Assembly (NCBI GenBank): GCA_903970515.1
Contig: CAJCJA010000002.1
Coordinates: 1 to 64,000, forward strand
Source: Candidatus Saccharibacteria bacterium CG_4_10_14_0_2_um_filter_52_9
GTDB lineage: Bacteria > Actinomycetota > Acidimicrobiia > Acidimicrobiales > RAAP-2
DNA: 64,000 bases
Direction of reading: 5' to 3'
Under the pieces are notes generated by a model. It was not told the origin of the DNA, made no database searches, and saw only the letters and a program-made list of their open reading frames with translations. The position numbers and the translations under genes are program-made. Of the stretch, positions 1,035 through 47,528 are shown piece by piece. Numbering within the stretch: the first letter of the stretch is position 1; each line of letters begins with the position of its first letter.

Positions 1035-1087
1035 GCTCCTTGTCACACTCGACCCCGACGTTCGAGGAGCATCATCACGGTGCACGT

Positions 1088-1912
1088 CTACGAAGGTGCT
1101 CGCGGAAGAGAGGAGACGAACGTTCCGGTGTTCTTCGAGATCGTCATGACGCCACCACCGGCCTCAAAGCGCCTGCCCAATTCTTCGCGTAGTTCAGTCG
1201 ATTGCTCGGGAGTGGCGTTCTCGCCGGGAGGACTCGAGCAGATATAGGCGACGACGTCCTCAGGGTCGCTGCAGCGAATGACGTCGTCGTAACGATGCCA
1301 CGCGACTCGATCGAACGCGGATTCGAGCATCGCGGCGCCCGTCTCGGAACCAAACGCGTCAATAGAGCGATGCGATTGATTGACGCCAAAGATTGCATTG
1401 ACGACCTCGTTCATCTCGCGAAGATTTCCAGGTCCGTTGGTCGCGGTGAGTAAGGCGCCGCTCGGACGAAGGACGCGCGCGAACTCACCAATCGCCTTTA
1501 ACGGCTCGGGCACGTGATAAAGCATGAAGTTGGCGACCACGACGTCGAAGGATTGGTCATCGAAAGGGAGATCCTGCGCGTCGGCTTCGAGCGAGGCTTC
1601 AATCACGTGGCTCGTCGTCGATCGCACGCGATCACTCGCGATTGTGACCATTCCGGGCGACAGATCGCTCAACGTGAGTCGAATCGCCGTGGGAACAACG
1701 TCGGTGCTCTGGGTCCAGAACCATCCAGGGCCGCACCCCACATCAAGCACTCTGGCGTGCTCGGGCCAGTCGATCTGTGCCGCCAGCCACGGGATGAAGC
1801 GCACGCTCGACGTGGAGTGCTTCCGATGCAGATTTGCGCGGGCAAGGAGTTTGGTCGAATCGCGATATTGCACGTTTCGCAAGTAGTCCTGCCGACTCCA
1901 CTGGCTCGCCAT
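1088..1912 (-). CDS. Class I SAM-dependent methyltransferase
   Basis: A 274-residue Rossmann-type methyltransferase of the Methyltransf_11 kind. Motif I is VLDVGCGPGWFW (SAM-binding glycine loop), followed by acidic residues for the ribose hydroxyls, DAQDLPFDDQSFDVV (motif IV region) and FARVLRPSGALL (motif VI). An upstream in-frame extension exists, but the start at 1912 is preferred because GGAGG lies just before it and the extension does not read like protein. The substrate cannot be read from the sequence. The next gene upstream on the same strand is a second, unrelated methyltransferase. Confidence 0.8.
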   Translation of the reverse strand: MASQWSRQDYLRNVQYRDSTKLLARANLHRKHSTSSVRFIPWLAAQIDWPEHARVLDVGCGPGWFWTQSTDVVPTAIRLTLSDLSPGMVTIASDRVRSTTSHVIEASLEADAQDLPFDDQSFDVVVANFMLYHVPEPLKAIGEFARVLRPSGALLTATNGPGNLREMNEVVNAIFGVNQSHRSIDAFGSETGAAMLESAFDRVAWHRYDDVIRCSDPEDVVAYICSSPPGENATPEQSTELREELGRRFEAGGGVMTISKNTGTFVSSLPRAPS

Positions 1913-1983
1913 AATCCTCCGCTCACCCCAGATTACTGACGAGGTTGGCAACGAGCCCACGAGACCTATATATAGGGCTTGGC

Positions 1984-2715
1984 TCAACCTTTCACGAGCA
2001 TTGCCACGTACGGATCGCTCGGAATCGAGGAAATCACCCGTTCTTGGTGCCATCCGGTGCCCACAAGGATTGCTCGCATCTCAGCAGGCGATACGTACAA
2101 CCAGTTGAACCAAGTTCCGGTCAGCTCCTCATAGCGATAACGAACGCGCAACTGACCAGGGGCGACACCGCGTCGCTTGTTGGCGAAATAGTACGTGCGA
2201 TCAAAACCGGGCGCGCCTCCGTAGTAGGCGTTGGTGCTCTCGACGAGAATTCTTGCATTGTCGTTGGTGTTCTCGGCGAGCTTCTTGAGTATTGAGCGTG
2301 CGCGAGTGGGATTCTGTAGGATGCCGAAGTTATTACCAAAGAGGACGAGCGAGTCAAACGCCGAAAGTCGCTCCCCGAGCCCTTCAAGTGTGGCGCAACG
2401 CGCACGGCGCACGCCACACAACTTGGCCGCTTTTGCGGCGAGCGGGGACGCGTCGATCGCGAGGACGTCGATACCCCGGCGCTGTAGTTCAAGCGACACT
2501 CGGCCCGCGCCACACCCCACGTCGAGCACGCGTCCTCGCAGGTGGCGAAGCGCCCGTCGTTCGCACGAGGGCCAATCTCGAAGGGGGGACAGGTAGACCT
2601 GCGGCCCCGCGCCGAGTTGTTGGAACCCGTCCTCTCGCTCGAGAATCTCCGGCGTGGTCCCTCCACGGGCCCAGTCATAGAGCGCACGTCCGAAGACGTC
2701 GTGTCGAGGATTCAC
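1984..2715 (-). CDS. Class I SAM-dependent methyltransferase
   Basis: 243 residues. Motif I is RVLDVGCGAGRVSLEL and the post-I acidic position is in LAIDASPLAAK. FDSLVLFGNNFG follows, in the place where a substrate-proximal loop occurs in this fold. The C-terminal half (FDRTYYFANKRRG, then a WFNWLY segment) suggests a small-molecule methyltransferase, but no substrate can be named. It begins with GTG and has no strong ribosome binding site. It lies about 70 bases upstream of the previous methyltransferase and probably shares its transcript. The two proteins are not close paralogues outside the SAM motif. Confidence 0.75.
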   Translation of the reverse strand: MNPRHDVFGRALYDWARGGTTPEILEREDGFQQLGAGPQVYLSPLRDWPSCERRALRHLRGRVLDVGCGAGRVSLELQRRGIDVLAIDASPLAAKAAKLCGVRRARCATLEGLGERLSAFDSLVLFGNNFGILQNPTRARSILKKLAENTNDNARILVESTNAYYGGAPGFDRTYYFANKRRGVAPGQLRVRYRYEELTGTWFNWLYVSPAEMRAILVGTGWHQERVISSIPSDPYVAMLVKG

Positions 2716-2995
2716 GTGGAGGTCCCATGTTCGAACGATTAATTGGTGAAGACGCAGTCGCTTGGGACAGTACTACCGTCGTTCGCGGTCGAACCTGCAC
2801 GTAGCTTCGCCAGCCATTCGTGCCCGGTGGCGCCACTGGTCGAAAGTCTGTGCCTCTCGATCAAAGAGTGGGTAAGGTCTTGATGAGAGCGTGCGTGAAG
2901 TCGCCTCCGATCGATGGTCACCGACGACATTGGAGGACGCGATGAACGGGCTCTTGACGTCGCCAACCGTGACGCCGCCTACGAGAGGGAAAACC

Positions 2996-3112
2996 ATGGC
3001 CGAGAAATCACCAAGTCAACACAATGCGAAAAAGGTCGGTAAGTCGCTGAAGGAAAAGCGCACCGAGAAGCACGCGAAAAAGGAATCTAAGAAGGGCGTG
3101 CTCGGCTCGTGA
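2996..3112 (+). CDS. Small Lys-rich conserved protein (38 aa)
   Basis: A 38-residue protein with about a third lysines: MAEKSPSQHNAKKVGKSLK, then an EKRTEKHAKKESKK repeat-like tail. AGAGGGA lies about six bases ahead of ATG 2996, which decides this start over a longer frame from 2891. I recall short basic proteins with a GKSLKEKR core in other actinobacteria, of unknown role and possibly nucleic-acid binding. It stands alone between a methyltransferase on the other strand and a 400-base non-coding stretch. Confidence 0.6.
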   Translation: MAEKSPSQHNAKKVGKSLKEKRTEKHAKKESKKGVLGS

Positions 3113-3524
3113 CGCCGTGACGTCGTGGGGCCGCAAGCAGCAGCCCTGACATTCCGTCCGAAAAGCATTGCATTTCGCATCGTCGAGTGGTTGCACGGTG
3201 ATGGTGGGCTGTTCCCCTGTTCGCTGTGGGGGGCTGCTCGCGTTCCGTGTGAACCCATTACGTTGGAGACAGTAGCCGCGGAAGTCCTGTGACTCGACGG
3301 CGGGTGTTTGTTTTGAATGCGCGCGTCCGAAGGGATCGACGTGCAAAAGCCCACTTTCCACCGTTGCGTTTTGATTCGTAGGAACTGTCGTTCCGGCGCT
3401 GCGTCATCGGTCGAACAGCGCACGAAGGGCCAACGGTGAGTGAAGGCGTTCGTGCCGCGAAACGGTTCATTCTCGATCGAGAGCACGTGGCGACATCGTA
3501 AAACCTCGTCAGCATTTTTGGCTC
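3113..3524. other. Non-coding stretch, no gene recognised
   Basis: About 410 bases between the Lys-rich gene and the CHASE-GGDEF-EAL gene. Open frames here (for example on the minus strand, 3016-3486) have odd composition and match nothing I know. A small hairpin, GGAAC-TGTC-GTTCC, lies at 3381-3394. In the last 85 bases the frame of the downstream gene stays open but contains no ATG, GTG or TTG. Confidence 0.5.
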
Positions 3525-5816
3525 ATGGTGGCGGCGCTCGTCGTCATACTGGGTTCCGCTGGTACGTTCCTGGCCGCCAACGTCATATCGAGGAACGCTA
3601 CTCAGGCGTCGCGCCAAAACTTTGACGCGTCGTCGCAAGAGATCGCGTCGACCTTGAAGCTCGCGATTCAACACGAGCAGGACCTTGTCGTGAACGAAGG
3701 TGCATTCTTCGTGGAAAATCCCCACGCGACCCAGGCGCAATTTCTCTCGTGGATCTCCTCGACGCGAACATTCTCTCGTTATCCCGAACTCTCCGGCAGC
3801 GCCCTCGTGGTGATCGTTACCAAGTCACAGCTTCCTGCGTTCGAGGCGAAATCGCTCCAGCATCCTGTGGGCGTCCTTGGTGCCGGTCATACGTTCCAAA
3901 TCATCCCGGCGGGGTCGCGTCCGTTCTACTGCTTCCAACAAGTCGCCGCGACAAGCAGGGGCCCATCGATAACGCCCGTCGGCTACGACTTTTGTGACTC
4001 GTTCTTGGCGCCCGCGCTGCTCGCCGATCGCGATTCGGGGCAGGGCCAGTATTTGCCGTACGGAACGGGGAAGGACGAATTGTTGGTGTTAGGAACGCCC
4101 GTCTACCGCGATGGCGTGACTCCGGCGACCGTCCAAACTCGTCGGGCAAATTTTGTTGGTTGGTCGGGGACGTCCGTTATTCCCAGCGTCATCGTCGCGA
4201 CCGCACTGCAAGACCATCGCGGCATTTCAGCCGCCTTTACGTACATCGGCGGTTCGAAGAACGTCAGTTTCAGCGCGGGCCATGCTCCTTCGCGTGCGCA
4301 GAGTCTGACGGTCCCCTTGCATAACGGTTGGCGCGTGGAGACGTACGGCGCATTGAGCGGTGGCGGCTTGTTCACCAATGGGAACTCGCTGATCTTGCTC
4401 TTAAGCGGCGGAGCGGGCAGCATTATCCTGGGCCTGCTCGTCTTCGTGCTCGGTACCGGCCGCGCCCGAGCACTGGTGTTGGTGAGGGAACGTACCATTG
4501 AACTTCAGCACCGGGCGCTGCACGACCCGCTCACCGGGTTGCCCAATCGGGCGTTGATCCTTGACCGAATCGACCAGATGTTGGCTCGGGCTCGACGTGA
4601 GCGAAGTGCCGTCGCGGTACTCTTCCTCGACCTCGACAATTTTAAAGACGTGAATGACACACTGGGTCACGCGGCGGGTGACCAGTTGCTGATGCAAGTC
4701 GGCGAGCGTCTCTCGGGGGTCTTGCGTGAAGTGGACACTGTGGGGCGACTCGGGGGCGACGAATTCGTCATCCTCGCGCAAGGATCCGCTCTCGCGCCAG
4801 GCGCCGAAGAGGTCGCCCAGCGAGTACTCGACGTGTTGAGACCGCCTTTTGACATCGCCGCGAGCGACACTCCCCTACGAGTCACTGCGAGCATCGGGAT
4901 TGCCGAGGGCATGCGAGAGAAATCGGAGGACCTGCTTCGCGACGCGGACATTGCGCTGTACCAAGCAAAGAGTCTCGGTCGCCGGCGAGCAGTCGCGTTC
5001 TTACCCGCGATGCAAAAGATCGTCGATGAGCGCCAGTCGTTGCTGGTTGATCTGAGCGCGGGACTTGTCGAGCACCAGTTCTTCTTGCTGTACCAACCGA
5101 TCGTCAATCTCGCGACGGGCACGTTCAACGGCGTTGAAGCGATGCTTCGTTGGCGCCACCCGTCACGGGGGGTTGTCATGCCTGAGCAGTTCGTTCCCGC
5201 CCTCGAGGCGAGCGGGATGATGGTGGCGGTGGGAATATGGTCGTTGCAAGAAGCGTGTCGACAAGGTGCGTTGTGGCGCTCCCAGGGGCATCACTTCCCA
5301 ATTTCGGTGAAATTATCGGCGAAGCAACTCGAAAGTGATGACATCATCAACGTCGTGCGTGACGCACTCTCGAGCAGTGGTCTGGAACCTTCGAGTTTGG
5401 TCCTAGAAATCGACGAGACGACGTTAATGCAGGACACTGACGAGACCGCGGATCGACTTCGTGCCCTGAAGGATCTCGGCGTGCATTTGGCGATCGTCGA
5501 TTTTGGGACGTGGTACACGTCGTTGACAAATTTGCGGCGATTCCCGATTGACATGTTGAGAGTTGAGCGGGTGCTCGAGTCAGAATTCGTCGACAACGCA
5601 GAAGTCTCCGTCCTTGAACGCACCGTGGTGCAATTGGGCGAGGCGTTGGGTCTCGAAACCGTGACCGAAGGCGCCCAAGGTCATGATCAACGTCGCCATC
5701 TCATCTCTGCGAACGTCGACACCGGTCGCGAGTCGCTCTTCGCGAAACGTCTCGACGCCGACGGTGTCGATCGACTCTTGAATGATTGGGAGGGCGAACC
5801 CGTCGCCACTCCTTGA
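3525..5816 (+). CDS. CHASE-GGDEF-EAL c-di-GMP protein with intact GGDEF and degenerate EAL
   Basis: 763 residues. A membrane segment (1-25), an extracytoplasmic CHASE-like sensor (about 30-280) and a second membrane segment (about 285-312) lead into GGDEF. The cyclase motif GGDEF (410-414, bases 4752-4766) is intact, with the RxxD inhibitory site (REVD) five residues before it. The phosphodiesterase half is eroded. The EAL motif reads EAM (538-540). The metal-ligand Asn of the NLS motif is Lys (VKLSAKQL). DDFGTG reads VDFGTW, the catalytic Lys is Arg (LRVERV), and the QGY end motif is missing. I infer an active diguanylate cyclase with a non-catalytic, perhaps sensory, EAL domain. The N-terminus starts directly in a membrane helix, so the true start may lie upstream. 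It converges with kaiB. Confidence 0.88.
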   Translation: MVAALVVILGSAGTFLAANVISRNATQASRQNFDASSQEIASTLKLAIQHEQDLVVNEGAFFVENPHATQAQFLSWISSTRTFSRYPELSGSALVVIVTKSQLPAFEAKSLQHPVGVLGAGHTFQIIPAGSRPFYCFQQVAATSRGPSITPVGYDFCDSFLAPALLADRDSGQGQYLPYGTGKDELLVLGTPVYRDGVTPATVQTRRANFVGWSGTSVIPSVIVATALQDHRGISAAFTYIGGSKNVSFSAGHAPSRAQSLTVPLHNGWRVETYGALSGGGLFTNGNSLILLLSGGAGSIILGLLVFVLGTGRARALVLVRERTIELQHRALHDPLTGLPNRALILDRIDQMLARARRERSAVAVLFLDLDNFKDVNDTLGHAAGDQLLMQVGERLSGVLREVDTVGRLGGDEFVILAQGSALAPGAEEVAQRVLDVLRPPFDIAASDTPLRVTASIGIAEGMREKSEDLLRDADIALYQAKSLGRRRAVAFLPAMQKIVDERQSLLVDLSAGLVEHQFFLLYQPIVNLATGTFNGVEAMLRWRHPSRGVVMPEQFVPALEASGMMVAVGIWSLQEACRQGALWRSQGHHFPISVKLSAKQLESDDIINVVRDALSSSGLEPSSLVLEIDETTLMQDTDETADRLRALKDLGVHLAIVDFGTWYTSLTNLRRFPIDMLRVERVLESEFVDNAEVSVLERTVVQLGEALGLETVTEGAQGHDQRRHLISANVDTGRESLFAKRLDADGVDRLLNDWEGEPVATP

Positions 5817-5951
5817 GCCCGGAGATGGTTGTCGTGCCCTGTGACACCAGCGGTGCGTTTCACTACGACGTTCGCTCGCGTGGTCAACTGACGAGGTCCG
5901 ACAGCAAATTGTGATTCACGCTAGCTTTGAGATTGAGTCGTCGGGCGAGGC

Positions 5952-6281
5952 TCACGCCTCGATGAGCTCGAGACCCTGCAAGACCTTCGTGGCGTCGGAG
6001 AGATCGCCAATCACTCGGCGCGGTGGACCTGGCGATCGTCGCACCAAGGTGGGGATGGCGCTGATGTTGTTCTCGATCGCCATTTCGGGATGCACGTCGA
6101 GGTCGATCACTTCGATGCGATAGTTACCGGCGAGGTTGCTGTGACAAATTTGCTCGATATTGGCAATAGCACGCAGTGACAGTACCGTTGCACCCACGAC
6201 GTAGAGATCTAGTTCCCACCTGCCCGAGTCACCGTTGGTGTGCGCACCTGCGGCGTGGGCCATGGCGTTCGACTTAACCAT
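5952..6281 (-). CDS. kaiB: Circadian clock protein KaiB
   Basis: 109 residues with the thioredoxin-like KaiB pattern: LDLYVVGATVLSLRAI (first strand and helix), YRIEVIDLDVHPEMA, the PTL turn (SAIPTLVRR), a Pro-rich PGPPRRVIGDLSD, and a terminal LQGLELI. In cyanobacteria KaiB binds the CI ring of KaiC, switches fold and drives the dephosphorylation phase. The RRVIGDLSD stretch, which holds fold-switch residues, is preserved. ATG 6281 lies inside the last codons of kaiC (8-base overlap), so the two are translationally coupled. A second possible start is ATG 6263. There is no kaiA nearby. Confidence 0.9.
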   Translation of the reverse strand: MVKSNAMAHAAGAHTNGDSGRWELDLYVVGATVLSLRAIANIEQICHSNLAGNYRIEVIDLDVHPEMAIENNISAIPTLVRRSPGPPRRVIGDLSDATKVLQGLELIEA

Positions 6282-8034
6282 TGTCGTCGCTCAGCTCGTC
6301 GTTCGTGGACCACCGGGACGTGCGCATAAGATTGCGAAGGTGGAGGACTTCTTCGAGGGCGCCCACGCCTTCGAGGACTGAATCGTCAAGCATGGCCCGT
6401 TCTTCTTCGAAGGCCCGCCAAAGTGCGCCGACTTGGGATTCGACGTCAAGCCTCTTGCGTTCCATTCGCTCTTGGAGGCGCTTCATCAATTCCACTCGCT
6501 CCTCGGCGACGGCTCGTTCCTTTTCAACCTGCAAGATCCGTGCCGTTCCCGTCAGAACACCTGATGGGCCTATGTAGGGGTCGAATAACTCGATGCCGTG
6601 GTCGGTGATGCCGAATTCCGCAACTTGATTGGAATGCGCCATTCCTCGCGATTTGATGATGAAAAGGACCCTGTTTCGCTCGCCGTTGGTCTCGACCAAA
6701 CGCGTCAAGAGCCAGGTGTCGACGAGCGAGGAGATGAGAACCTCGGAATGCTCGTCTTCGCCACTCGAGGACAGCGCAGTGAACACCGACGTGATGCCCC
6801 GACTCTTCAGGATGTCGATCTCTCGAAACAACATCGACGCGGTTTGCTGGGAGCTACCCATCCGCAAGAAACTGGTCACGGGATCGATCACGACGTTGCG
6901 GGGTTCGAACTCATCGACTATTTGCATCAACCAGAGCAGGTGTCCTTCGATGCTGTAGAGCGTTGGGCGTAATGATTCGATGCGCAGGAGACCTTCATCG
7001 AGCCACACTTGGACGTCCAGGCCGACCGAGCGCAGATTTCTCACTATTTGACTTGGCGATTCTTCGTAGGAGATGTAAAGCGTTCGTTCGCCTCGCTCGC
7101 ACGCCGCGCGCACGAAATGAAAGGCGAAGGTGGTCTTCGCCGTGCCCGCCGAACCACTTATGAGTACCGAACTGCCACGGTAGTAACCACCCGTGAGGGT
7201 GTGGTCAAGATGAGCGACACCGGTCGATATCTTCTCGCTGAACGCCTGTTGATCGAGACGCATCGCGAACACGGGCAAGATGTTGATGCCCTTAGAGGTG
7301 ATGATGAAGGGGAACTCGTCGGCGTGGTGCAATGATCCTCGATACTTCAGCACCCGAAGCCGCCGAACGGCACGCTCGTCGCTCGTGCGATGGTCGAGGA
7401 AGATCACACAATCGGAGACGAACTCTTCGATGCCGTAACGCGTGCCGCCTTGGTGACTCGACGACTCGGCGGTGACCATGGCGGTGAGGCCGCGATCCTT
7501 CAGCCATTCGAAGAGCCGGCGCAGTTCCGTACGAACGATCCCAGGGTCTTGGATCGACGTGAACAGGACTTCGAGGGTGTCGAGTGCGATGCGCTTCGCG
7601 CCAATGGCGTTGGCGAGGGTGGCGATGCGAATGAAGAGCCCTTCGAGATTGAACGCGCCCGATTCAGTGGTGTTCACGCCATCGAGACGAACATTGTCGA
7701 TGGCGAGCTTGCCCTGTGCTTCGAGTTCATCGACGTTAAAGCCAATCGATGCGACGTTCGCGACTAAGTCATCGCGGCGCTCTTCGAAAGAGACGAAGAT
7801 GCCGGGTTCGTCGAATTGCGTGGCACCGCGACAGAGGAATTCCATCGAGAGAAGTGTCTTGCCGCATCCCGCGCCACCGAAGACAAGCGTGGGTCGGCCC
7901 TTGGGCAAGCCCCCTTCAAGGATCTCGTCGAGCCCCGTGATGCCGGTGGGCGATTTCTCAATGCCCAGGGGCGGCGCGATTTTCTTGTTACCTGATGGAG
8001 AACTCTTTTTCTTCGCCGGGGTGGCTGCAGTCAT
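6274..8034 (-). CDS. kaiC: Circadian clock ATPase KaiC with coiled-coil tail
   Basis: 586 residues with two RecA-type halves. CI has Walker A GGAGCGKT (53-60), catalytic Glu pair FEE (84-85) and Walker B Asp at 152. CII has Walker A GSAGTAKT (294-301), Glu pair YEE (324-325) and Walker B VVID (381-384). Aligning by eye to Synechococcus KaiC, the Ser431-Thr432 autophosphorylation pair is Ser435-Ser436 (bases 6727-6732), in ISSLVDT. After CII, residues about 500-570 form a charged coiled coil (EKERAVAEERVELMKRLQER). This replaces the short KaiA-binding tail of cyanobacterial KaiC. ATG 8034 is chosen over 8121 because GAGGTGG sits just upstream. The gene is divergent from a PAS-LuxR regulator. 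Confidence 0.93.
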   Translation of the reverse strand: MTAATPAKKKSSPSGNKKIAPPLGIEKSPTGITGLDEILEGGLPKGRPTLVFGGAGCGKTLLSMEFLCRGATQFDEPGIFVSFEERRDDLVANVASIGFNVDELEAQGKLAIDNVRLDGVNTTESGAFNLEGLFIRIATLANAIGAKRIALDTLEVLFTSIQDPGIVRTELRRLFEWLKDRGLTAMVTAESSSHQGGTRYGIEEFVSDCVIFLDHRTSDERAVRRLRVLKYRGSLHHADEFPFIITSKGINILPVFAMRLDQQAFSEKISTGVAHLDHTLTGGYYRGSSVLISGSAGTAKTTFAFHFVRAACERGERTLYISYEESPSQIVRNLRSVGLDVQVWLDEGLLRIESLRPTLYSIEGHLLWLMQIVDEFEPRNVVIDPVTSFLRMGSSQQTASMLFREIDILKSRGITSVFTALSSSGEDEHSEVLISSLVDTWLLTRLVETNGERNRVLFIIKSRGMAHSNQVAEFGITDHGIELFDPYIGPSGVLTGTARILQVEKERAVAEERVELMKRLQERMERKRLDVESQVGALWRAFEEERAMLDDSVLEGVGALEEVLHLRNLMRTSRWSTNDELSDDNG

Positions 8035-8567
8035 GGTTCCACCTCTGCAAAGATAGGAAGACGATTCGGTTCTCCTACAATGTAACGTCGCGAACCTATT
8101 CGTCATACGAATTTCCTGCAACTCGATGATGTGTCGCCTTCAAAGGACATACTGTCAGTTCGACACCGATTCAGAGTTGGATGTAGAACAAAAAGTTTTT
8201 ACTTATTTGTGTGCTTGATACGTGGTATCGATACTCATATTCCAAATGCTGTGACTTGGTGCTCGACGGAAGCCTTCAAGTGCCGCGATAAGGGTATTTT
8301 TTGTCGAAGAACGACTTGTTGGCCTCGCCTGAACCACGAACGTCCCGTACTGCGAAAGTGGGTGCGCCAGGCAATGGGGAATCGAAGTGCAACGTCGAAA
8401 TTTGACGATGAGCGCCTAAAGGGAAGCGCATTCGCGCGGTTGCTATGTACGTTTTGAAAGCCCTCACAGGTAGTGATCCGAACACTTCGTCGGCACTGCG
8501 CTGACTCTGATTGCTGGCCGTCGAAAGAATCCTGTCTGACCTACCATTCGAAGAAAGAGGTGTGAGC
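8035..8567. promoter_or_regulatory. Divergent intergenic region between kaiC and a PAS-LuxR gene
   Basis: About 530 bases with no credible gene; it should hold both divergent promoters. The part around 8150-8260 is visibly AT-richer than its surroundings. It contains AAAAAGTTTTT near 8191-8201 and a perfect 10-base palindrome, GTATCGATAC, at 8225-8234. Either could be a regulator site, but neither is a known operator. A frame at 8131-8457 was judged non-coding. Confidence 0.4.
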
Positions 8568-9614
8568 ATGTCGGAACTGGATCGAACGTCGCCAGGCGGC
8601 GAGCTGTGGAGTTTCGTCGGTGATCTCCCGCTTCCACTTTATTTGATCGACCTCTCCACGTACAAGATCATCAATGCCACTGGGGACTTGATGGCCATCA
8701 TCGAGCGACCCGTCGAAGATGTCATTGGGCATCAAGTGTTCGATCTCTACAATCCTCGAGAACACAAGAATATCGACACGGCGCTCTCGTCGCTCGCGAA
8801 GGGTTCCATCGATTTCTTCCGCTCACGGCGAATTCTCGCGTACCCTTCGACTGGCACACACGGCGTCACGGTGTGGGTCAAGGTGCTTGAATTCGGGGAT
8901 CAGAAAGTGGGGCTCGCCGAGGTTTGTAACCGCTACGACGCTGTCGAGAGCCCCCTCTTGCAGTACCTAGGTTTCACGCCGCAAAAGATCGCGGCAGGAT
9001 TCACCGACGCAAAAGGCATCGTGACGGCGGTGAGCAACGATGTCGAATCACTTGTCGGTATCCCCGCCGCTCGCCTGGTGGGTCACCACTTGCTCAACGA
9101 CGCCGATCAGCGTCGCTGGGAGGAGATGTACGCGTCACCACCGGTGATGGGCGGCTATTCAATTTCGCACACCCTCGAACGTGAAGAAGTCAATGGCGTG
9201 GCGATACGAACTCGATGCATCCTCACCAGCTTCGCTAACTCCTCCGTGCGATGTTTCATTTTGATTGGCGAGCCGAAAAACCTGGTCAAGAACGCGAACG
9301 CTCGCATTGCGGAACTCGAGCAACGGCTGTGGCGGATCGCTGGTGAAGTCCAGGCGAGTGGTGTCTTTGATCCCGTCAAGAGTATTCCGGATCTCACCAA
9401 GTTCGACCAGATGGGTTCGCTGAGTGGAAGAGAATGGGAGGTGCTCACTCGACTCTTAAGCGGCGAGCGAGTCGCTTCGATCGCGCGGGTTCTCTTCGTG
9501 AGCCAAAGTACGATTCGCAACAATCTCAGTTCGATCTTTCGGAAGTTCGGCGTTCACTCGCAAGCGGAACTCTTGACGCTCTTGGCGCACCCGAAAGAAG
9601 AGTCGGTTCGTTAA
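8568..9614 (+). CDS. PAS-domain LuxR-family transcriptional regulator
   Basis: 348 residues. Two PAS-like sensor segments are visible (about 15-115 and 130-245; for example LPLYLIDLSTYKIINATG and GFTDAKGIVTAVSNDVESL). A helical linker and a C-terminal LuxR/FixJ helix-turn-helix (about 285-340) follow; SQSTIRNNLSSIF is the recognition helix and KFGVHSQAELL closes the motif. There is no receiver domain, so the input is probably a ligand, redox or protein contact at PAS. ATG 8568 follows AGAGGTG; an upstream ATG at 8511 is less likely. The protein has a paralogue of the same architecture at 14981-16099. Divergent orientation to kaiC suggests it may regulate, or respond to, the Kai pair; this is inference. 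Confidence 0.85.
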   Translation: MSELDRTSPGGELWSFVGDLPLPLYLIDLSTYKIINATGDLMAIIERPVEDVIGHQVFDLYNPREHKNIDTALSSLAKGSIDFFRSRRILAYPSTGTHGVTVWVKVLEFGDQKVGLAEVCNRYDAVESPLLQYLGFTPQKIAAGFTDAKGIVTAVSNDVESLVGIPAARLVGHHLLNDADQRRWEEMYASPPVMGGYSISHTLEREEVNGVAIRTRCILTSFANSSVRCFILIGEPKNLVKNANARIAELEQRLWRIAGEVQASGVFDPVKSIPDLTKFDQMGSLSGREWEVLTRLLSGERVASIARVLFVSQSTIRNNLSSIFRKFGVHSQAELLTLLAHPKEESVR

Positions 9615-9652
9615 CTTGTCGGAATCCGGTTGGACCGTGTTTCCTTTTCGAT

Positions 9653-12646
9653 TTACTCCGAAGCAGGCTTCGAACACAAGAGCGATGTCGCTTCAGTGAA
9701 ATCGACCGCTCGGCTCCAAAGGAAACCTTGACCGATTTTGCAACCCATACGCTGCAATGTTTCCCTCTGTGCTTCGACCTCGATGCCTTCAGCGACGATT
9801 CTCAGATCTAGCACGGCGGCGATGCCCATGATTGCCTTGATGAGCGTCGATTCCTCGCCATTCGCTGGAAGCGTGGCGACCATTCCCTTGTCGATTTTCA
9901 TGTAGTCGAATGGATACTCGTGAAGTCGAAGCATCGACGAATAGCCCGTGCCAAAGTCATCGAGGGCGAGTTGCACGCCGAGTTCCTTCAATCCTTGCAG
10001 CACCGCGAGCGCCGATTCAGGGTTGGTCATCGAAGATTCAGTAATCTCGATGCAAAGTTGTCCAGGGTCGATATCCTCTTCGAGCAGAACTTCTTGAACG
10101 ACACCAACGATCGTTTCGTTGATTTGCGTCGGCGAGAGATTGAGCGCAACCGTGATTCGATTATTCAATCGAAGTGAGCGCCACGTGCGCAGTGCCTGAC
10201 AGGTCGTGCGAAGCACCGACTTGAAAATCGCGTCGATGAGTCCGCTTTCCTCGGCGAGGGGAATGAACTCATCGGGCGAAATCGCTCCGAGCTTCAAGTG
10301 TCGCCAACGGGCCAGCGCCTCGAAGCCGATTATCTCGCCCGTCGAAAGGGACACGACGGGCTGAAAGTACGTCTTGATGGCGTCGTTTTCGATGGCATTG
10401 ATGAGTTCGTCACGCAAATGACTTCTTCGAACGAGTTCATCGTGCGACGTGGCGTCAAAGACGCCGTAATTCGAGAAGCCGAGCTGACTCGCCGAGGACA
10501 TGGCGATATCGGCACCGCGAAGGAGTTCATCCGCGTTCGCGTCGCGCCAAACCAGAACCACACCCACGCGAAGGGCGTAGGGTACCTTCTCCATTCCAAC
10601 TGACAGGGGCATTCGGGAATGTTCGACGAGTTGCGCGGCAAAGGCGATCGCCTCATCGGATGAATCAAGGTATTCCATGCAAAGGGCGAATTCGGTGCCG
10701 CCAAAATGCGCGAGGAAGTCGTCCGGGCGAAGCTCGTTCGAGAACGTCCGAGCCCAGGCTTCCATAGCGTCCTCTCGGGACGCCAAGCCGGTTCGCCCGT
10801 GCACCGCGGCCTTTTCTTCGAAATCAACGAGGACCACGGCGAGGGACTTCGACGTTTCGCGAGAACGTATGAGGACCGCATCGAGATGCTCGAGGAACAG
10901 GCGTCGATTGGGAAGTCCCGATTGCGAGTCGTGGCGCGCCTGGTAGGCGAGCTGGTCCTCGAGTTCTCGCAAGTCGCGTATGTCAATGGACGCCGAGAGG
11001 GTCCCGTGGAAGTCCAACTCCTCGATGTGAATATTCTCGACCTTCGCGCGTACGGGGATCAGCGTGGCGTCAGCGCGCCGGGCGTCGTAGGTGCCTTCCC
11101 ATGAGCCGTATTCGGCGAGCGATTCGCCCACGACATGGGCGAAGCTGTGTCGTACCCCTAGATCGGACATGCTTCTGCCGATCGCGTCATCCTTGGAAAA
11201 TCCGTAGATCTCCTCGGCGCTTTGATTCCAGTAGACGATCGTTTCGCACTCGTCGTAGACAATGACGGCGGCTGGGAGGCGCTCGAGCAATCTCGACTCG
11301 AGGTTGCGAGCGATGCTGGCGAACTTTCGATTGGTCACGTCGTGACCAATCACCGTGATGGCCTTTATATCGGGATCGTCCAGTCGATTGGTCGCCCGGA
11401 GGTCGAGAATGTGCTGGCGTCGTCGCTCGTCGTAGACGCGAAGTTCCACTTGCTCGCTGGCCATTGGCTTGGCGACGAGGCGAGCGAGTAGCTCGTGAGC
11501 TTTCTGCACGTCGGCGGGTACCAAATTGGCGAATCCATTGAACGAAGTGGCCGTGAAGTCTGTCGTGCCGAGAATATTTCGAGTGGACAGTGAGCGCTCG
11601 AGCACGTTGCCGTTCACGTCCAGCAGCGCGAAGACTCTCGGCTCGTCGGAATGTTCATCCGCGTGGATCTGTTCAACGTGGTGCGTCGCACCGTGATTTT
11701 CGTCGCCGGCCATTTGTTCACTGAGTCGCACGTCGGTGATATCAATGTGCGATACGTGAGCGTACTCCCCAGCGGCGACGACTCGTACGCTTCGCCAATG
11801 ATCTTGACCATCGAACGGGCAGTAGTAGTCGCAACTGAAACGATTGATGTCGCCGACGAGCACTGATCGAATGCCTCGCGCGACGTCACGCGCTTCCTTC
11901 GCGAACTCGTCACTGGCGTGATCGCACGTCGTCAGATAATTCGCACCTACTCCCGTTTTTCCCGCGGGCACACCGCTGCGTAGCTCTAGCTCGCGCCAGG
12001 TGTGATTTACCGAAACGATGAGGCCGGTTCGATCGATGATCGCCGAGGGCACTTTCAATTCTTCAAAGGCCGCCGCCGCGATCAATTCTTCTTCGTTGAT
12101 GAGAGGGGGACCCGATCGGCGTCGAAGCGCATTGGTGATGGTCTCGCGGAGAACGGGGGTACTCAATTCATCCTTGTCAACGACACCGTCGGCCCCGTGC
12201 GACAGCGCTTCGAAGTGCAACGATTTTTCCGCGACGCTCGCGAGTACGACGATCGGGGAGTGGGGGGCGCTGCGAGCAAGGACACTGAGGCCACTGAATT
12301 CTCGGGTGTCGGGCAGACTCAAGTCGAGAAAGATGACGTCAAAGGATGAGTCGCTGATCAGACTGCACGCGTCATCGATCGTCTCAACGACCCGTACTTC
12401 AACGTCGTGATTGATCTCGAGCAGCGCCTCTCGTAACAAGATCTGGTCGACGGCGCTGTCTTCGATGACGAGCGCTCGACGAAAGACATCGCTGGATAGG
12501 GCTACTTCGTTTGTGGGTGGATCTTGCTCGGCGCCAGATCTTGTTGAGCGAGGCGTCGCCAGAGATGACGCGGCGTTGCGCGTTCGCTTTGCATCTGATG
12601 CGCCGGAGTCCTCAAAACTGAAGAGGCGGTGCTCACTGGGATTCAT
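9653..12646 (-). CDS. REC-PAS-GGDEF-EAL protein with degenerate GGDEF and intact EAL
   Basis: 997 residues. The receiver domain (about 57-175) has acidic residues in IEDS and the phosphoacceptor Asp108 in FLDLSLPD. Two or three PAS/PAC segments span about 190-560. The cyclase motif reads GGTEF (649-653, bases 10688-10702), so the metal-binding Asp is lost, although the RxxD site (RPDD) remains. The EAL domain is complete: EAL at 776-778, NLS Asn, EITE Glu, DDFGTG, KID Lys, AEG Glu and GQG. I infer a c-di-GMP phosphodiesterase controlled by phosphorylation and PAS input. The gene lies 46 bases downstream of the kinase-like gene on the same strand, so the two are likely co-transcribed. Confidence 0.9.
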   Translation of the reverse strand: MNPSEHRLFSFEDSGASDAKRTRNAASSLATPRSTRSGAEQDPPTNEVALSSDVFRRALVIEDSAVDQILLREALLEINHDVEVRVVETIDDACSLISDSSFDVIFLDLSLPDTREFSGLSVLARSAPHSPIVVLASVAEKSLHFEALSHGADGVVDKDELSTPVLRETITNALRRRSGPPLINEEELIAAAAFEELKVPSAIIDRTGLIVSVNHTWRELELRSGVPAGKTGVGANYLTTCDHASDEFAKEARDVARGIRSVLVGDINRFSCDYYCPFDGQDHWRSVRVVAAGEYAHVSHIDITDVRLSEQMAGDENHGATHHVEQIHADEHSDEPRVFALLDVNGNVLERSLSTRNILGTTDFTATSFNGFANLVPADVQKAHELLARLVAKPMASEQVELRVYDERRRQHILDLRATNRLDDPDIKAITVIGHDVTNRKFASIARNLESRLLERLPAAVIVYDECETIVYWNQSAEEIYGFSKDDAIGRSMSDLGVRHSFAHVVGESLAEYGSWEGTYDARRADATLIPVRAKVENIHIEELDFHGTLSASIDIRDLRELEDQLAYQARHDSQSGLPNRRLFLEHLDAVLIRSRETSKSLAVVLVDFEEKAAVHGRTGLASREDAMEAWARTFSNELRPDDFLAHFGGTEFALCMEYLDSSDEAIAFAAQLVEHSRMPLSVGMEKVPYALRVGVVLVWRDANADELLRGADIAMSSASQLGFSNYGVFDATSHDELVRRSHLRDELINAIENDAIKTYFQPVVSLSTGEIIGFEALARWRHLKLGAISPDEFIPLAEESGLIDAIFKSVLRTTCQALRTWRSLRLNNRITVALNLSPTQINETIVGVVQEVLLEEDIDPGQLCIEITESSMTNPESALAVLQGLKELGVQLALDDFGTGYSSMLRLHEYPFDYMKIDKGMVATLPANGEESTLIKAIMGIAAVLDLRIVAEGIEVEAQRETLQRMGCKIGQGFLWSRAVDFTEATSLLCSKPASE

Positions 12647-12692
12647 TGCGACCCGCTAGTGTACGTGCGGCGAGACGAGACATCCGACCACG

Positions 12693-14795
12693 TCACTCAC
12701 TCTCTCGCGATGGCGCCAAAGTGAACCAGATGGTTGAGCTAGCTTCGACGTCACGGTGGCTGCCAAAGTCGCCACCGTGCGCGTTGACGATCCGCGCCGC
12801 GATGGCAAGATCGAGCCCCGTACCCGCGAAGGTGTTGCGAGCGTGGGGGCGTTGGAGCATCTGCACTGCCGTCGTGGGGCGCTCAATGTCCTGCAGGACG
12901 CTGCGCGTGACCACGGTTACCTTCGTGCAACCAGCTTCAGAAGTATTGGACGTCACCTCAATGGCGATGTGTTCACCCTCATCATGCGACGACAAGGAGT
13001 GGCGCAACACATTCTCGAAGACTTGTATTAGCAGGGTACGGTTCGCGTGAACGCTCGCGAGGTCACCAACGTTGAGCTCCAAGTCGAAACGGTCGAGCTC
13101 GAGCACCATGTTGGACATCGCGATATCCAAGACGCGGTTCAGTTCCACGTTCTCCGACGGCGGAGTCCCCGACCCGGTCGCGGCGAAGTTCTGGAGGTTG
13201 GCGATCATTGCGCGCATTCGCAAGCAAGCATTGGACGTGTGCCGCAGGTATTCATTGGCGTCGTCGCCGAGCTGATCGTGATATTTGCGCTCAAGGAGTG
13301 AGACCATCCCCGTGATGGCTCGTAACGGTTCGGCGAGGTCGTAGGCCGTCACGTACGCAAAGCGTTCGAGTTCCTCACTCGACTCCTTAAGTCGACGATC
13401 ACGGAGTTCCAACTCTTGACGCGCAACATCGAGCTCGTGCTGGGACTTCTTCTCGGGCGCGAGGTTTCGCGCGCGCGACAAAACGCCAAAGACGCGACCC
13501 TTGACATTTCGAATCGGCGAAAGCGTTTCCTCAACAACGAGTTGCTGTCCGTCGCGTCGCGTTCGCTGAATCTCGGAGCGGTCCACTCGCTCAGCAGAAT
13601 CATCCTTCAGCATCCGAAGCAGTTCTTCCGCGGCAGAGGGGAGTACCTCGCTCACCGAGGCGGCGAACGCTTGCTCGTAACTGATGCCGTAGAGCAACTC
13701 GGCGCCGCGGTTCCAGCTCATCACTCGTCCGTCCACGTCGATGGCGACAACGGCATCTTCCACGCAGTCAAGGATGTCGCTGAGGACAACTTGTTCGACT
13801 TCGTTTCGACGAATTGCAGAATTCGGCCAATCAATCGTCATTAAACTTGACATTGGAGAGTGGCTGACCTCGCTTCCGACGTTGCCCTCGGAAGATGATG
13901 TGGGCGAAAATAACGGTTCGTCAAGCAAGTCGATTGAATTCGTAACGTCCACGCACGTGCACACCACTTGGCTGGACTCGTCACCTTCGCCCGGAGCGAG
14001 TTCGGCGACGACTTGGAGCGTACGGGGTTCGCCATCCGGGCGAAGGACGTGCAACACGAATTCGCAATGAGAAGTGCTCACGACGCTGCGCAACGATGTT
14101 TCCACGTGCTCTCGCTCGTCTTGCGCGACGAGTTGGACGAATTCGACGAGATTCCTGTCCCAGTTGTCGCTCGAGACCCCGAGAATGTCGTACATCTCCC
14201 TCGTGAGCAAGAAGACTTGTTCAGTGTCTACGTCGAATGCGAAGATGCCCAAGCGAGTGTGTCGCGCGGCGCGGCTCGACTGCTGCGCCGCACCATTCTG
14301 GCGATCTCGAAGCAGCTCGATGTCGTACGCCAGTTCGTCGACCAAGGCGCGCAATTCGATGAGTTCACTCGTGCCGAAGGCGTCTTCGGTCTCGGCGTAG
14401 ACGGCGAGTGCGGCGATGACCCCATCGCTGGTGATAATCGGCAGCGCGCACGACGAACGGATTGTCAAGCCCGAGCGCTTGACTGGCGCAGTGCTCGCAT
14501 CGCGTGGTTTGGTATAGGTGGCGACTTGCACGGTGCCGAGGAGAATCGCCACGGTCACCGCGCTGTTGTAGGAATCGGGTCCTCGCCAGCTGTCCTTCAA
14601 ATCTTCCAAGTACTCCGTGTGTCCCGCGGACGCGATGGCGCGCACCGAGAAGTTGTCGGCAAACGCGGGCGCTCCAACCCACGCCAGCACATACTTGCCG
14701 GTCTCCATAAGTTGCATGCACGAGAGCGTGATAAGCGACGCCTCTTCGACGCTCGATTCGTTCCTCGGAGTGGGAACATGGTTCACTGGCTTCAT
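12693..14795 (-). CDS. GAF/PAS histidine-kinase-like protein lacking the phospho-accepting His
   Basis: 700 residues. An N-terminal GAF-like domain (about 15-165), a PAS (about 180-280), a second PAS (about 345-450, VVAIDVDGRVMSWNRGAE), a coiled coil, a HisKA-like helix pair and a C-terminal ATPase-like domain follow in order. The H-box reads FAYVTAYDLAEPLR. Relatives have SHDL at this place, so the phosphoacceptor is Tyr485 (bases 13341-13343). The ATPase domain keeps a G2-like GTGLDLAIA, but the N box is poor (VFENVLRHS) and no DxGxG is seen. It is probably a pseudokinase or scaffold. It has no membrane segment, so it is cytoplasmic. The REC protein encoded next could receive phosphate from elsewhere. 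Confidence 0.8.
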   Translation of the reverse strand: MKPVNHVPTPRNESSVEEASLITLSCMQLMETGKYVLAWVGAPAFADNFSVRAIASAGHTEYLEDLKDSWRGPDSYNSAVTVAILLGTVQVATYTKPRDASTAPVKRSGLTIRSSCALPIITSDGVIAALAVYAETEDAFGTSELIELRALVDELAYDIELLRDRQNGAAQQSSRAARHTRLGIFAFDVDTEQVFLLTREMYDILGVSSDNWDRNLVEFVQLVAQDEREHVETSLRSVVSTSHCEFVLHVLRPDGEPRTLQVVAELAPGEGDESSQVVCTCVDVTNSIDLLDEPLFSPTSSSEGNVGSEVSHSPMSSLMTIDWPNSAIRRNEVEQVVLSDILDCVEDAVVAIDVDGRVMSWNRGAELLYGISYEQAFAASVSEVLPSAAEELLRMLKDDSAERVDRSEIQRTRRDGQQLVVEETLSPIRNVKGRVFGVLSRARNLAPEKKSQHELDVARQELELRDRRLKESSEELERFAYVTAYDLAEPLRAITGMVSLLERKYHDQLGDDANEYLRHTSNACLRMRAMIANLQNFAATGSGTPPSENVELNRVLDIAMSNMVLELDRFDLELNVGDLASVHANRTLLIQVFENVLRHSLSSHDEGEHIAIEVTSNTSEAGCTKVTVVTRSVLQDIERPTTAVQMLQRPHARNTFAGTGLDLAIAARIVNAHGGDFGSHRDVEASSTIWFTLAPSRESE

Positions 14796-14980
14796 GAGCG
14801 GCGGAGGTCGAAGGTCGAGACATTCTGCGACGTGGGAACCGCGAATTGTTGCGTCACGCGGCGTCGGGTTGGCCGCGCGGGCTGAGAGCCCGGATTTTCA
14901 AAGAAATCGGTCACTGCGTAGTGCAAAACACAAGACGGATTTTGGGGAGCATGATATCTGATCGGGCAACATTGCATGCG

Positions 14981-16099
14981 TCAATTCTGGGCGTTGAGCA
15001 CCGAAAATACAATCGACAGAGTGTCCTGATGCAGTTGCGAAACGTCAGAATTGCTCAACAAATCGAGGAGTTCGGCTTGGGAGTGTACACCAAACTTCTG
15101 GAAGATTTCGCTGAGCGTGTTACGAACGGCGCTCGGACTTATGAAGAGCGCCGCGGCGATTGACGAGACGCGTTCTGCGCGCAGGAGTCGGCGCAACACT
15201 TCTAATTGGCGGGCGTTCAGTGCGTCAATTTGTGGCGAATGAGTATCCGGCGTCATCCGGTCGAACGAGTCGAGAACGCGACTGGCTTGAATCTCCTGCG
15301 CGATGCGCACTAGGTGAAGTTCGAGTTGCGAAGTTCGTTGCGAATGGCGCGTAGTGCGGATGACGGCGTGAAGGGAAATGATGAAGCACTGGTCTGTTGT
15401 ACCCGCGAGAGCCGTGAGGATGCACAGAGGCTCCAGTTCCTCTGACTGTTGGTCGCGCCGCGCCATTCGAAGTGCCACGGAGTGAGAGAGAGTGTAATTT
15501 TTCCTATCGTCAACGAGTGTACGAACGTGTTGTTCCTCGCTCGCCGTGAAGAGTCGATGACCAATTAGTTCCTCGCTACTGACACCAAGAACGTCACGAA
15601 CTTGAGAACTGACCGAGGTGACGATCCCGTCGCCATCGATGAGACCGACCACCACGTCGTGGCGAGAGTATTCGAAGTTCTCCGAAAAAATGAACGATTT
15701 GGGTTCGAGACCAATGTTCATCTCATTGAGCGCGAAACTCTTCCCTGCAGCATCGAAGGGCCAGACGCGCGTCCACAGAAATGATCCTTCCTCGGCGAGA
15801 ATGCGGGCGTCGGGTTCGCGTTTGCTCGTGTAGGACTCGACGTGTCGTTTTTCGAGTTGGCGCAGAGCGCCCATCATTTTGTTTCGTTCCTTCGTGGCGA
15901 TCAGAGCGGTCGCAGAATGGCGCAAGACGTCGGCGGCGGTCAGTCCCGTTTGTTCGATGAAAGTGTTGCTGGCGGCGACAATCGTGAGCGACTCGAGGTC
16001 AATGAGCGAAATCGCTAGCGAGAATTCGCCGTCGAGGAGAGTTCGTCGCTCGTCGCCCAGTGCTGAAGTGTCAACTTGGGCATCTTCGATAATCGCCAT
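14981..16099 (-). CDS. PAS-domain LuxR-family transcriptional regulator (paralogue)
   Basis: 372 residues with the same layout as the regulator at 8568-9614: PAS-like segment (SLAISLIDLESLTIVAAS), second PAS (VVVGLIDGDGIVTSVSSQV), a helical linker and a LuxR helix-turn-helix. The ends match almost motif for motif: SPSAVRNTLSEIFQKFGV here against SQSTIRNNLSSIFRKFGV there. The linker is also conserved (RIAQEIQAS against RIAGEVQAS), indicating duplication. ATG 16099 follows AGAGGATGG, favouring it over an in-frame start at 16210. It is the first gene of the minus-strand row leading into the kinase-like gene, after a 185-base gap. Confidence 0.85.
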   Translation of the reverse strand: MAIIEDAQVDTSALGDERRTLLDGEFSLAISLIDLESLTIVAASNTFIEQTGLTAADVLRHSATALIATKERNKMMGALRQLEKRHVESYTSKREPDARILAEEGSFLWTRVWPFDAAGKSFALNEMNIGLEPKSFIFSENFEYSRHDVVVGLIDGDGIVTSVSSQVRDVLGVSSEELIGHRLFTASEEQHVRTLVDDRKNYTLSHSVALRMARRDQQSEELEPLCILTALAGTTDQCFIISLHAVIRTTRHSQRTSQLELHLVRIAQEIQASRVLDSFDRMTPDTHSPQIDALNARQLEVLRRLLRAERVSSIAAALFISPSAVRNTLSEIFQKFGVHSQAELLDLLSNSDVSQLHQDTLSIVFSVLNAQN

Positions 16100-16298
16100 A
16101 AGTGTCCATCCTCTTGATGAACCCTTTGGCGCACATACACCATTGTAGGCGTCGGTTGCAAATCGCAATCGTTCCTTGTCGCATCGAGCCACGTGTCGGT
16201 GTCCTTGCAAAGAACGTTCGACTCACGTCGCTCGTTCGGTGCCAAGTCTGAGATCAGCGAAGTGGTGGTGTCCCGAGACGTGCGATTGAAGCGGTTGC

Positions 16299-17749: not shown

Positions 17750-18166
17750 CTACTTCTTGGTCGCCCAGAACAACTCGGCGATCGCGTCGATCTCGCTGAG
17801 CAGCCGATCGGCGACGACGACGTCGTTGGTCTTCTTCGATTCACCGGCCGACTTGGTCGCCATCCAGAACAGGTCGTGCAGGTTCGGGAACTCCTTCAGG
17901 TGTTCGACCTTGAAGTAGTCCGTCCACAGCACCCACAGGTGGTGCTTGACGAGATCGGCGCGCTCTTCTTTGATGATGGTGGCACGCACCTTGAAGTCAG
18001 GGTCGCTCGAGGCGTTGTACTTCTCCATGCAGGCCTTGACTGACTGCGCTTCGAGCTTCGCCTGGGCGGGGTCGTACACACCGCAGGGAAGGTCGCAGTG
18101 CGCCGAGACGCAAAGAGGTTCGATGTGCTTGTCGAGTACTGCGTTGATTCGGGAAAGAAGCGTCAT
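17750..18166 (-). CDS. sodN: Nickel superoxide dismutase
   Basis: 138 residues. A 22-residue leader (MTLLSRINAVLDKHIEPLCV plus Ser-Ala) precedes the nickel hook HCDLPCGVYDPAQ. Cleavage before His23 would expose His1, Cys2 and Cys6, the Ni ligands known for this family. The rest matches the four-helix SodN subunit (for example WVLWTDYFKVEHLKEFPNL). The enzyme dismutes superoxide as a hexamer. An extended frame to 18322 exists, but the leader begins naturally at 18166, after an AAAGG. The maturation protease gene is divergent about 90 bases away. Confidence 0.95.
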   Translation of the reverse strand: MTLLSRINAVLDKHIEPLCVSAHCDLPCGVYDPAQAKLEAQSVKACMEKYNASSDPDFKVRATIIKEERADLVKHHLWVLWTDYFKVEHLKEFPNLHDLFWMATKSAGESKKTNDVVVADRLLSEIDAIAELFWATKK

Positions 18167-47241: not shown

Positions 47242-47528
47242 CGATGTACGTGTCACCTTTCCTTTATTGCAGCACGCGTTCGTATCGACGCACTGCAACG
47301 ATCACGCTCGAGGATGTAGACAATCGTCGTCACAATTCTACGGCACTACCGCGAAGAACTGTTCCACCTTTTCTCAAATCCTCGAACGTGACACTTCGCC
47401 AAATGGGTCCAGCCGAGGTCCCGGTTCGCATTGACAAGGTGGTCGCGAGCGCAGACACTTTGCAATGTTGCGCCAATCGTCGCGCACGCGAGGGCCGGGC
47501 GTATGGCGTCTCGAGGACAGTAACGTTG

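Follow-up and report, generated by a model that had tools for sequence, protein, structure and literature searches.

Gene Content and Organization of the Locus

The analysed window, a stretch of 64,000 nucleotides from an uncultured actinobacterium, contains seven signalling genes standing together between positions 3525 and 16099 (Table 1), as the original prediction had it; their place was confirmed by open reading frame calls and Pfam, and all seven reading frames are open. The kaiB gene overlaps the 3' end of kaiC, making the two adjacent, and the kaiC start at the ATG behind GAGGTGG was better than the start of the longer open reading frame. Gene g1 is convergent with kaiB and g4 is divergent from kaiC. 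No gene directly follows kaiB on the same strand, the adjoining g1 being a GGDEF-EAL gene on the opposite strand. The Rfam search of the window gave no match, and the scan of positions 7950–8620 for sigma-70-like promoters found none.

Table 1. Genes and conserved upstream blocks of the kai locus (window coordinates).
Feature	Position	Strand	Product length	Remarks
g1, CHASE-GGDEF-EAL	3525..5816	+	763 aa	Pfam, residue alignment
kaiB	5952..6281	-	109 aa	PF07689, 73 bits
kaiC	6274..8034	-	586 aa	from ATG 8034; ORF open to 8121
ACATACTGTCAGTTCG	8147..8162	none		conserved block upstream of kaiC; includes palindrome ACTGTCAGT
GGATGTAGAACAAAAAGTTTTTACTTA	8179..8205	none		27-bp block between the divergent kaiC and g4; candidate operator
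g4, PAS-PAS-coiled coil-LuxR HTH	8568..9614 (alternative start 8511)	+
g5, REC-PAS-GGDEF-EAL	9653..12646	-	997 aa
g6, GAF-PAS-PAS-HisKA-HATPase-like	12693..14795	-	700 aa	predicted pseudokinase
g7, PAS-LuxR	14981..16099	-		ATG 16099; ORF open to 16210

KaiC and KaiB

Judged by sequence, KaiC and KaiB belong to the KaiBC type of Rhodobacter sphaeroides (KaiC2/KaiB2). PF06745 was found in two stretches of KaiC, identifying a double-domain (CI and CII) protein, which also matched PRK09302 over its full length and above the cut-off of that model. The phosphosites are two serines (ISSLVDTW), a criterion for the KaiC2 type in the accessible parts of PMC5520375 and PMC10076222. The protein carries a C-terminal extension, for which about 50 aa was applied as the KaiC2/KaiB2-type criterion, and its match to 8dba runs to chain residue 530 of 568. 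The best PDB match of KaiB was 8fwj_M, from an entry whose KaiC is the same as in 8fwi, and the nearest solved structures of the pair by sequence are those of R. sphaeroides (8dba, 8fwi). The Walker A motif of CI is intact; that of CII reads GSAGTAKT, with Ala in the window species and its sister species at a position occupied by Gly in all 86 other KaiCs. This substitution was missed in the original prediction.

Catalytic Residues of the Large Partner Proteins

A selective loss of catalytic sites in the large partners, suspected from the outset, was borne out by the alignments for the EAL domain of g1, the GGDEF domain of g5 and the kinase part of g6. The GGDEF domain of g1 and its RxxD I-site are intact, and four of the eight inspected EAL residues are changed in the window species, the Glu of EAL itself being kept. 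All eight are present in the sister species and in nine of ten further matches (the tenth, from genome G232, has two changes), so the full loss is confined to the window species. In g5 the pattern is shared by both species: the GGDEF motif is degenerate (GGTEF in the window, GGSEF in the sister species) with RxxD kept, and the inspected EAL residues are retained (8/8).

In g6, judged against 67 other kinase-domain sequences, the phospho-His position is occupied by Tyr in the window and by Arg in the sister species. Both species share an N-box Asn to His change, a G2 Gly to Asp change and replacement of the first Gly of DxGxG by Ser; the remainder of the latter motif is lost in the window. The protein is thus predicted to be a pseudokinase, lacking the residues of an active histidine kinase. 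Its structure model was unusable (pLDDT 35.9).

PAS-LuxR Regulators and the Intergenic Blocks

A GerE domain was recognized in g4 at 50 bits, PAS models being weak. Its AF2 model (4 rows, mean pLDDT 68.5) comprised two alpha/beta domains, a long helix and an HTH, and its Foldseek matches were tandem-PAS proteins with E-values of about 1e-11, yet a TM of about 0.25. The second regulator, g7, is 30% identical to g4.

Ten loci with longer matches to the PAS-LuxR regulators outside the two Kai species were examined, nine partial matches (G268, G244, G240, G205, G111, G194, G419, G424 and G472) being left out. The relatives directly adjoined GGDEF/EAL genes at seven of these ten Kai-less loci, of which about five are independent (L215/L216 and L217/L218 are near copies, at 88 and 98%, respectively); a genome-wide test for the absence of kaiB covered seven of the ten, all but G411, G430 and G487.

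Both blocks upstream of kaiC are identical in the sister species. The shorter, ACATACTGTCAGTTCG, had one window site at 0 mismatches, and 25 of 100 shuffles matched at up to 3 mismatches. With up to 3 mismatches allowed, each of the two genomes had one occurrence of the 17-base core of the 27-bp GGATGTAGAACAAAAAGTTTTTACTTA, in both cases at 0 mismatches, and reversed-pattern controls gave 2 and 1 sites. No regulon was found for the 27-bp element, which has this single site in each of the two genomes.

Conservation within the Genus and Composition

The sister species, represented by genome G234 from a bog, carries the same seven genes in the same order beside xthA, so the refuting condition set originally, neighbours conserved with kaiBC in no relative, does not apply. 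Among 99 genus genomes, kaiB, the N-terminal 560 aa (sensor part) of g5, full-length g6 and the presence of two PAS-LuxR genes were limited to these two species (G000, the window species, and G234). The original reading is supported in part. The PAS-LuxR/c-di-GMP pairing also occurs without Kai, and g1 is a gene of the genus that is mostly found without it: the genus contains 25 full-length matches (41–100% identity, one of them interrupted by an internal stop) and 3 partial ones, and 26 of these 28 genomes lack kaiB. Because full-length matches were present in 25 of the 99 genomes, g1 is not Kai-specific, and its status as a Kai partner by descent was rejected.

Relative to the sister species, six island genes had dN/dS values of 0.08–0.19, their synonymous sites being close to saturation; stop and N-containing codons within the matched stretches of G234 were left out before counting, and the ratio was not computable for g4. 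These six genes are under purifying selection. The most diverged gene was g5 (55% identity). Synonymous divergence (pS) was 0.67–0.77 in island genes versus 0.42–0.55 in backbone genes, apart from one short backbone outlier at 0.19. As a sign of separate transfer this was weakened by a non-island GGDEF pair reaching 0.75; two other such pairs gave 0.54 and 0.58, and three further pairings were dropped as not orthologous (34–42% identity).

The GC content in 2-kb steps was 0.535–0.600 over 3–17 kb versus 0.594–0.662 from 17 kb rightwards, in agreement with the lower GC noted originally, and island codon use deviated from that of 22 backbone genes with z of -1.9 to -4.5. The same deviation was seen in six of seven other GGDEF genes (counting the one in the second kai locus) and in two flanking methyltransferases. 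Most of the other GGDEF genes in this genome have a GC content just as low or codons just as deviant; composition thus does not single out the island, and low GC was rejected as a sign of import. There was also no tRNA in the window and no integrase among the seven genes; the locus thus does not have the marks of a mobile genomic island (integrase, tRNA target, distinctive composition).

In G232, which lacks Kai, g1 is present near the site and the stretch between it and xthA is filled with unrelated genes (hydrolase, PLD-like and HipA-like by eye). Accessory signalling genes might gather beside xthA by chance or because the site is a hot spot, and be passed on jointly though they share no pathway. 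The low GC3 and odd codons common to other accessory genes and the non-island GGDEF pair as divergent as the island at synonymous sites point in the same direction, but seven genes kept in order, with purifying selection measurable in six, and a kaiBC linkage to GGDEF/EAL and kinase genes that recurs across phyla and has been reported before leave this a possibility that we consider rather unlikely.

Neighbours of kaiBC in Other Bacteria

Kinase or GGDEF-EAL genes after kaiBC recur in many phyla. The gene right after kaiBC encoded a kinase at 37 and a GGDEF-EAL protein at 16 of 68 informative loci, i.e., the 80 KaiC loci minus 12 with less than 2.5 kb behind kaiB; the sister-species locus (L104) is among the 68 and was scored 'none'. 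About 0.3 GGDEF neighbours were expected over 50 genomes, which were chosen to take in all 16 positive loci, with 950 genes per Mb assumed, genome sizes rounded and a background count of at least 1156 GGDEF genes (three genomes at 58 or more each). On the KaiC tree, from which L040, L104 (a copy of the G234 locus L080) and L119 (a copy of the G058 locus L039) were left out, the neighbour state changed between kinase and GGDEF-EAL at least 5 times, a count that gives no direction. All 17 Kai-linked GGDEF-EAL proteins of the alignment had the inspected EAL residues (8/8), and GGDEF was kept in 15. No GGDEF/EAL gene was present near kaiB in the examined stretches of G164, G067 and G146, three of six other order members with a clear kaiB and enough sequence. 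The genome of the window species has a second kai locus (C28), which also includes a hybrid kinase and a REC-wHTH-PAS-EAL-GGDEF protein; three of the nine GGDEF genes of this genome lie within its two kai loci, i.e., in 1.1% of its bases, which is beyond chance (P about 1e-4 under uniform placement).

These data bear on whether KaiBC might have transcription as its sole output, exerted via g6 and the two PAS-LuxR proteins, with c-di-GMP genes that belong to the PAS-LuxR cassette and ignore Kai. Such cassettes do exist without Kai, a kinase is the commoner kaiBC neighbour and g1 is independent of Kai within the genus; however, g6 lacks the kinase residues, several distinct branches of the KaiC tree have a GGDEF-EAL gene beside kaiBC and the second locus also pairs kaiBC with GGDEF/EAL domains, which makes a purely transcriptional output unlikely.

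The occurrence of kaiBC followed by a kinase or GGDEF/EAL gene was published in 2011 in the Ramlibacter tataouinensis genome paper (PMC3164672), so calling the locus 'undescribed' was too strong: that context is already known, and what is new is the arrangement seen here. Kinase-like and GGDEF/EAL proteins neighbour kaiBC in both cases. Unlike in the kaiC-kaiB clusters that form the first kaiC context in the accessible part of that paper, where the third gene lies immediately downstream, the GGDEF-EAL gene beside kaiB is convergent, the kinase-like g6 is apparently catalytically dead and separated from kaiBC by g4 and g5, and the cluster has two PAS-LuxR regulators interspersed.

Proposed Function

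The explanation that we prefer, and to which we give about an even chance, is a co-inherited merger of a KaiC2/KaiB2-type module, a PAS-LuxR/c-di-GMP cassette and a resident CHASE-GGDEF-EAL gene, in which the Kai state would be coupled to c-di-GMP and transcription. By analogy with the R. sphaeroides hourglass (described in PMC10076222), the phosphorylation/ATPase state of KaiC and fold-switched KaiB may report cell energy or the time since a shift, to be read by contact with the neighbouring PAS/GAF proteins. Under this scheme g5 would break down c-di-GMP as a phosphodiesterase, with its REC and PAS domains and its catalytically dead GGDEF domain tuning the activity, g1 would act as a diguanylate cyclase in the window species and g6 as a non-phosphorylating scaffold or sensor. 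The transcription arm would consist of g4 and g7, one of which probably acts at the conserved single-site element in the kaiC–g4 intergenic region. A more specific version, in which KaiBC works without KaiA as a timer or gauge of energy and directly sets the g1 cyclase/g5 phosphodiesterase pair, with a pseudokinase adaptor and with the PAS-LuxR pair looping back onto the kaiC promoter, seems doubtful as a whole. A c-di-GMP output of Kai without a phosphorelay is in line with the EAL half being kept in g5 and in all 17 Kai-linked GGDEF-EAL proteins.

Several observations count against this explanation. The gene beside kaiB, g1, is convergent and not Kai-specific, and three of the six other order members had no GGDEF/EAL gene in the stretch examined. 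The window species and its sister together are one evolutionary event, GGDEF-EAL is a minority neighbour of kaiBC (16 versus 37 kinases) and the CII Walker A substitution could blunt the kinase activity of KaiC. In addition, Synechococcus elongatus KaiC was unchanged by c-di-GMP in vitro, according to the available part of PMC13001216.

The system resembles R. sphaeroides KaiBC as presented in the accessible part of PMC10076222 in having a KaiC with two Ser sites and a C-terminal extension, and a KaiB partner. It differs in the Gly to Ala change in CII Walker A. The R. sphaeroides kaiBC operon includes a histidine kinase, as stated in the part of PMC5520375 available. As in the SasA/RpaA output of the cyanobacterial KaiABC clock (same part of PMC13001216), the Kai state could reach a DNA-binding regulator; unlike there, the kinase-like g6 has no phospho-His and the regulators are PAS-LuxR proteins without REC.

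That kinase and GGDEF-EAL genes alternate after kaiBC suggests that c-di-GMP may serve as an output in place of a kinase. With its catalytic sites assigned as dead or live, and with one candidate operator conserved in both species, the locus opens the idea of a c-di-GMP output to tests that need few constructs. That the lost sites reflect degeneration of a decaying locus rather than regulatory design is very improbable: the four EAL changes in g1 of the window species, the altered KaiC CII Walker A and the divergence of g5 would fit, but the seven frames are open in the window, dN/dS is low in six genes, and the two species have the same dead sites in g5, and some of the same in g6, with the partner domains intact.

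Organization and Conservation of the Locus

The window runs for 64 kb from the start of a contig 83 kb long, in a 1.97-Mb genome that is 96% complete, and the seven signaling genes fill a single stretch of it.

Coordinates and strands of the locus and of related features
Feature	Location	Strand	Remark
Seven signaling genes	window 3525-16210		
g1 (CHASE-GGDEF-EAL)	window	+	
kaiC-kaiB	window	-	genes overlap; 8034 is the best placement of the kaiC start
g4 (PAS-LuxR)	window	+	divergent from kaiC
g7 (PAS-LuxR), g6 (GAF-PAS-PAS-HisKA-HATPase-like), g5 (REC-PAS-GGDEF-EAL)	window	-	
Intergenic blocks	window 8147-8162, 8179-8205		kaiC-g4 gap
Nickel superoxide dismutase (Sod_Ni)	window 17753-18166		SodX-like peptidase reading frame on the opposite strand, by eye
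GAF-GGDEF protein	window 46276-47298		one of nine GGDEF genes in the genome
Second kai locus	L037 (G000:C28) 206-9254		short contig, unanchored in the genome
Kai-linked PAS-GAF-GGDEF-EAL, two proteobacteria	L140 12084-15191; L143 12093-15596		GGDEF site lost, EAL residues kept
PAS-LuxR locus without Kai	L252 (G487:C122) 7160-10631		two PAS-LuxR genes alternate with GGDEF-EAL genes
Lone kaiB	L081 (G234:C50) 9070-9432		no KaiC detected within the 20 kb fetched
Transposase-like gene, by eye	L081 18411-19412		same contig as the lone kaiB

In the sister species G234 all seven genes adjoined xthA in unchanged order, with identities to the window of 73 (g1), 79 (kaiB), 76 (kaiC), 60 (g4), 55 (g5), 63 (g6) and 64% (g7). 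Among 99 genomes of the genus (59 with completeness of 90% or more and contamination of 5% or less), kaiB was present in two (E 1e-8), and the N-terminal part of g5 and full-length g6 occurred in the same two; the GAF-PAS part of g6 alone was matched in four further genomes. The Kai-less member G232 had both g1 and xthA but lacked the Kai block. The dN/dS values of six genes (g4 was not computable) were 0.08–0.19, with synonymous sites near saturation. In the kaiC-g4 gap two blocks were identical in G234 amid diverged DNA, and the core of the second was the sole such site in each of the two genomes with up to three mismatches allowed. The conserved block is a candidate operator.

Catalytic residues were read at aligned columns. 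The window g1 had intact GGDEF and RxxD motifs, and four of the eight EAL residues were changed (Asn to Lys, first Asp of DDFG to Val, Lys to Arg, last Glu to Gln); all eight were kept in G234 and in nine other inspected matches, and two were changed in G232. In both species g5 carried GGTEF/GGSEF at the GGDEF site with RxxD and all eight EAL residues kept, and g6 had lost the phospho-His (Tyr, Arg), the N-box Asn (to His) and the G2 Gly (to Asp). Kai-linked GGDEF-EAL proteins of other bacteria kept the EAL residues in 17/17 and GGDEF in 15/17 cases; L140 and L143 have lost GGDEF, like g5. The gene content, order, co-inheritance, constraint, and live and dead sites of the locus are established.

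Kai Proteins and Their Neighbors

The window KaiC scored higher against KaiC of R. sphaeroides (8dba, 553 bits) than of Synechococcus (1tf7, 316 bits; species according to PMC10076222), and the best match of KaiB was 8fwj_M. The window KaiC had Ser-Ser sites and the C-terminal extension, which PMC10076222 associates in R. sphaeroides with phosphorylation independent of KaiA and with an hourglass. The residue before the CII Walker A lysine was alanine in the window and G234 and glycine in all 86 others. Active P-loop enzymes elsewhere can also have alanine at this position.

Linkage of kaiBC to a kinase or GGDEF/EAL gene is already known: the Ramlibacter genome paper PMC3164672 (2011) describes one directly downstream in almost all non-cyanobacterial kaiC-kaiB clusters, and PMC3899966, on Bradyrhizobium, gives kaiC-kaiB-kinase-CheY as an operon. 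Among 80 named loci, the best of 456 confirmed, 68 were informative. The next gene (same strand, within 1 kb) encoded a kinase at 37 of these and a GGDEF-EAL protein at 16; three had a PAS-only gene there, and at 12 none was detected. Nine of the 16 were checked with Pfam and combined PAS or PAS-GAF with GGDEF-EAL. At least 1156 GGDEF matches over 217 Mb in 50 of the surveyed genomes predict about 0.3 such neighbors. On a quick KaiC tree (87 rows, long branches, moderate support) the kinase and GGDEF-EAL states required at least five changes, a count without direction; a 15-row actinobacterial clade had GGDEF-EAL in 12, a kinase in one and none in two. KaiC of the window, G234 and C28 formed their own clade, subject to a long-branch warning. 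At the C28 locus kaiC-kaiB was accompanied by a PAS/GAF hybrid kinase of 1266 aa and by a REC-wHTH-PAS-EAL-GGDEF protein of 1047 aa, in which the EAL-GGDEF order is reversed. The lone kaiB of G234 was adjoined by REC-PAS, a PAS-HisKA_3 kinase and two REC-LuxR genes.

Possible Signaling Through c-di-GMP

KaiBC may sense energy or elapsed time, and neighboring proteins would read its state, g5 and g1 changing c-di-GMP and g4/g7 transcription. Counting against a Kai/c-di-GMP mechanism, three of six other order members with a clear kaiB had no GGDEF/EAL gene nearby. According to PMC13001216, KaiC of S. elongatus was unaffected by c-di-GMP in vitro; this result speaks against direct binding as a route of feedback, but leaves room for an action of Kai on c-di-GMP enzymes.

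Among the matches listed, g1 was full-length in 25/99 genus genomes (41–100% identity, one with an internal stop) and partial in three more. PAS-LuxR relatives occurred in 11/99 genus genomes (E 1e-15) and, own genome counted, 11/397 order genomes (E 1e-30). At seven of ten loci outside both Kai species (G238, G259, G228, G227, G055, G411, G487; about five independent cases, given the near copies G238/G259 and G227/G228) a GGDEF-EAL or EAL gene adjoined PAS-LuxR; none was found in G204, G430 and G069, and neither KaiB nor KaiC was observed at any of the ten. Therefore, c-di-GMP is the element common to the Kai and PAS-LuxR parts. At the four genus loci the neighbor also shared part of the GAF-PAS stretch of g6.
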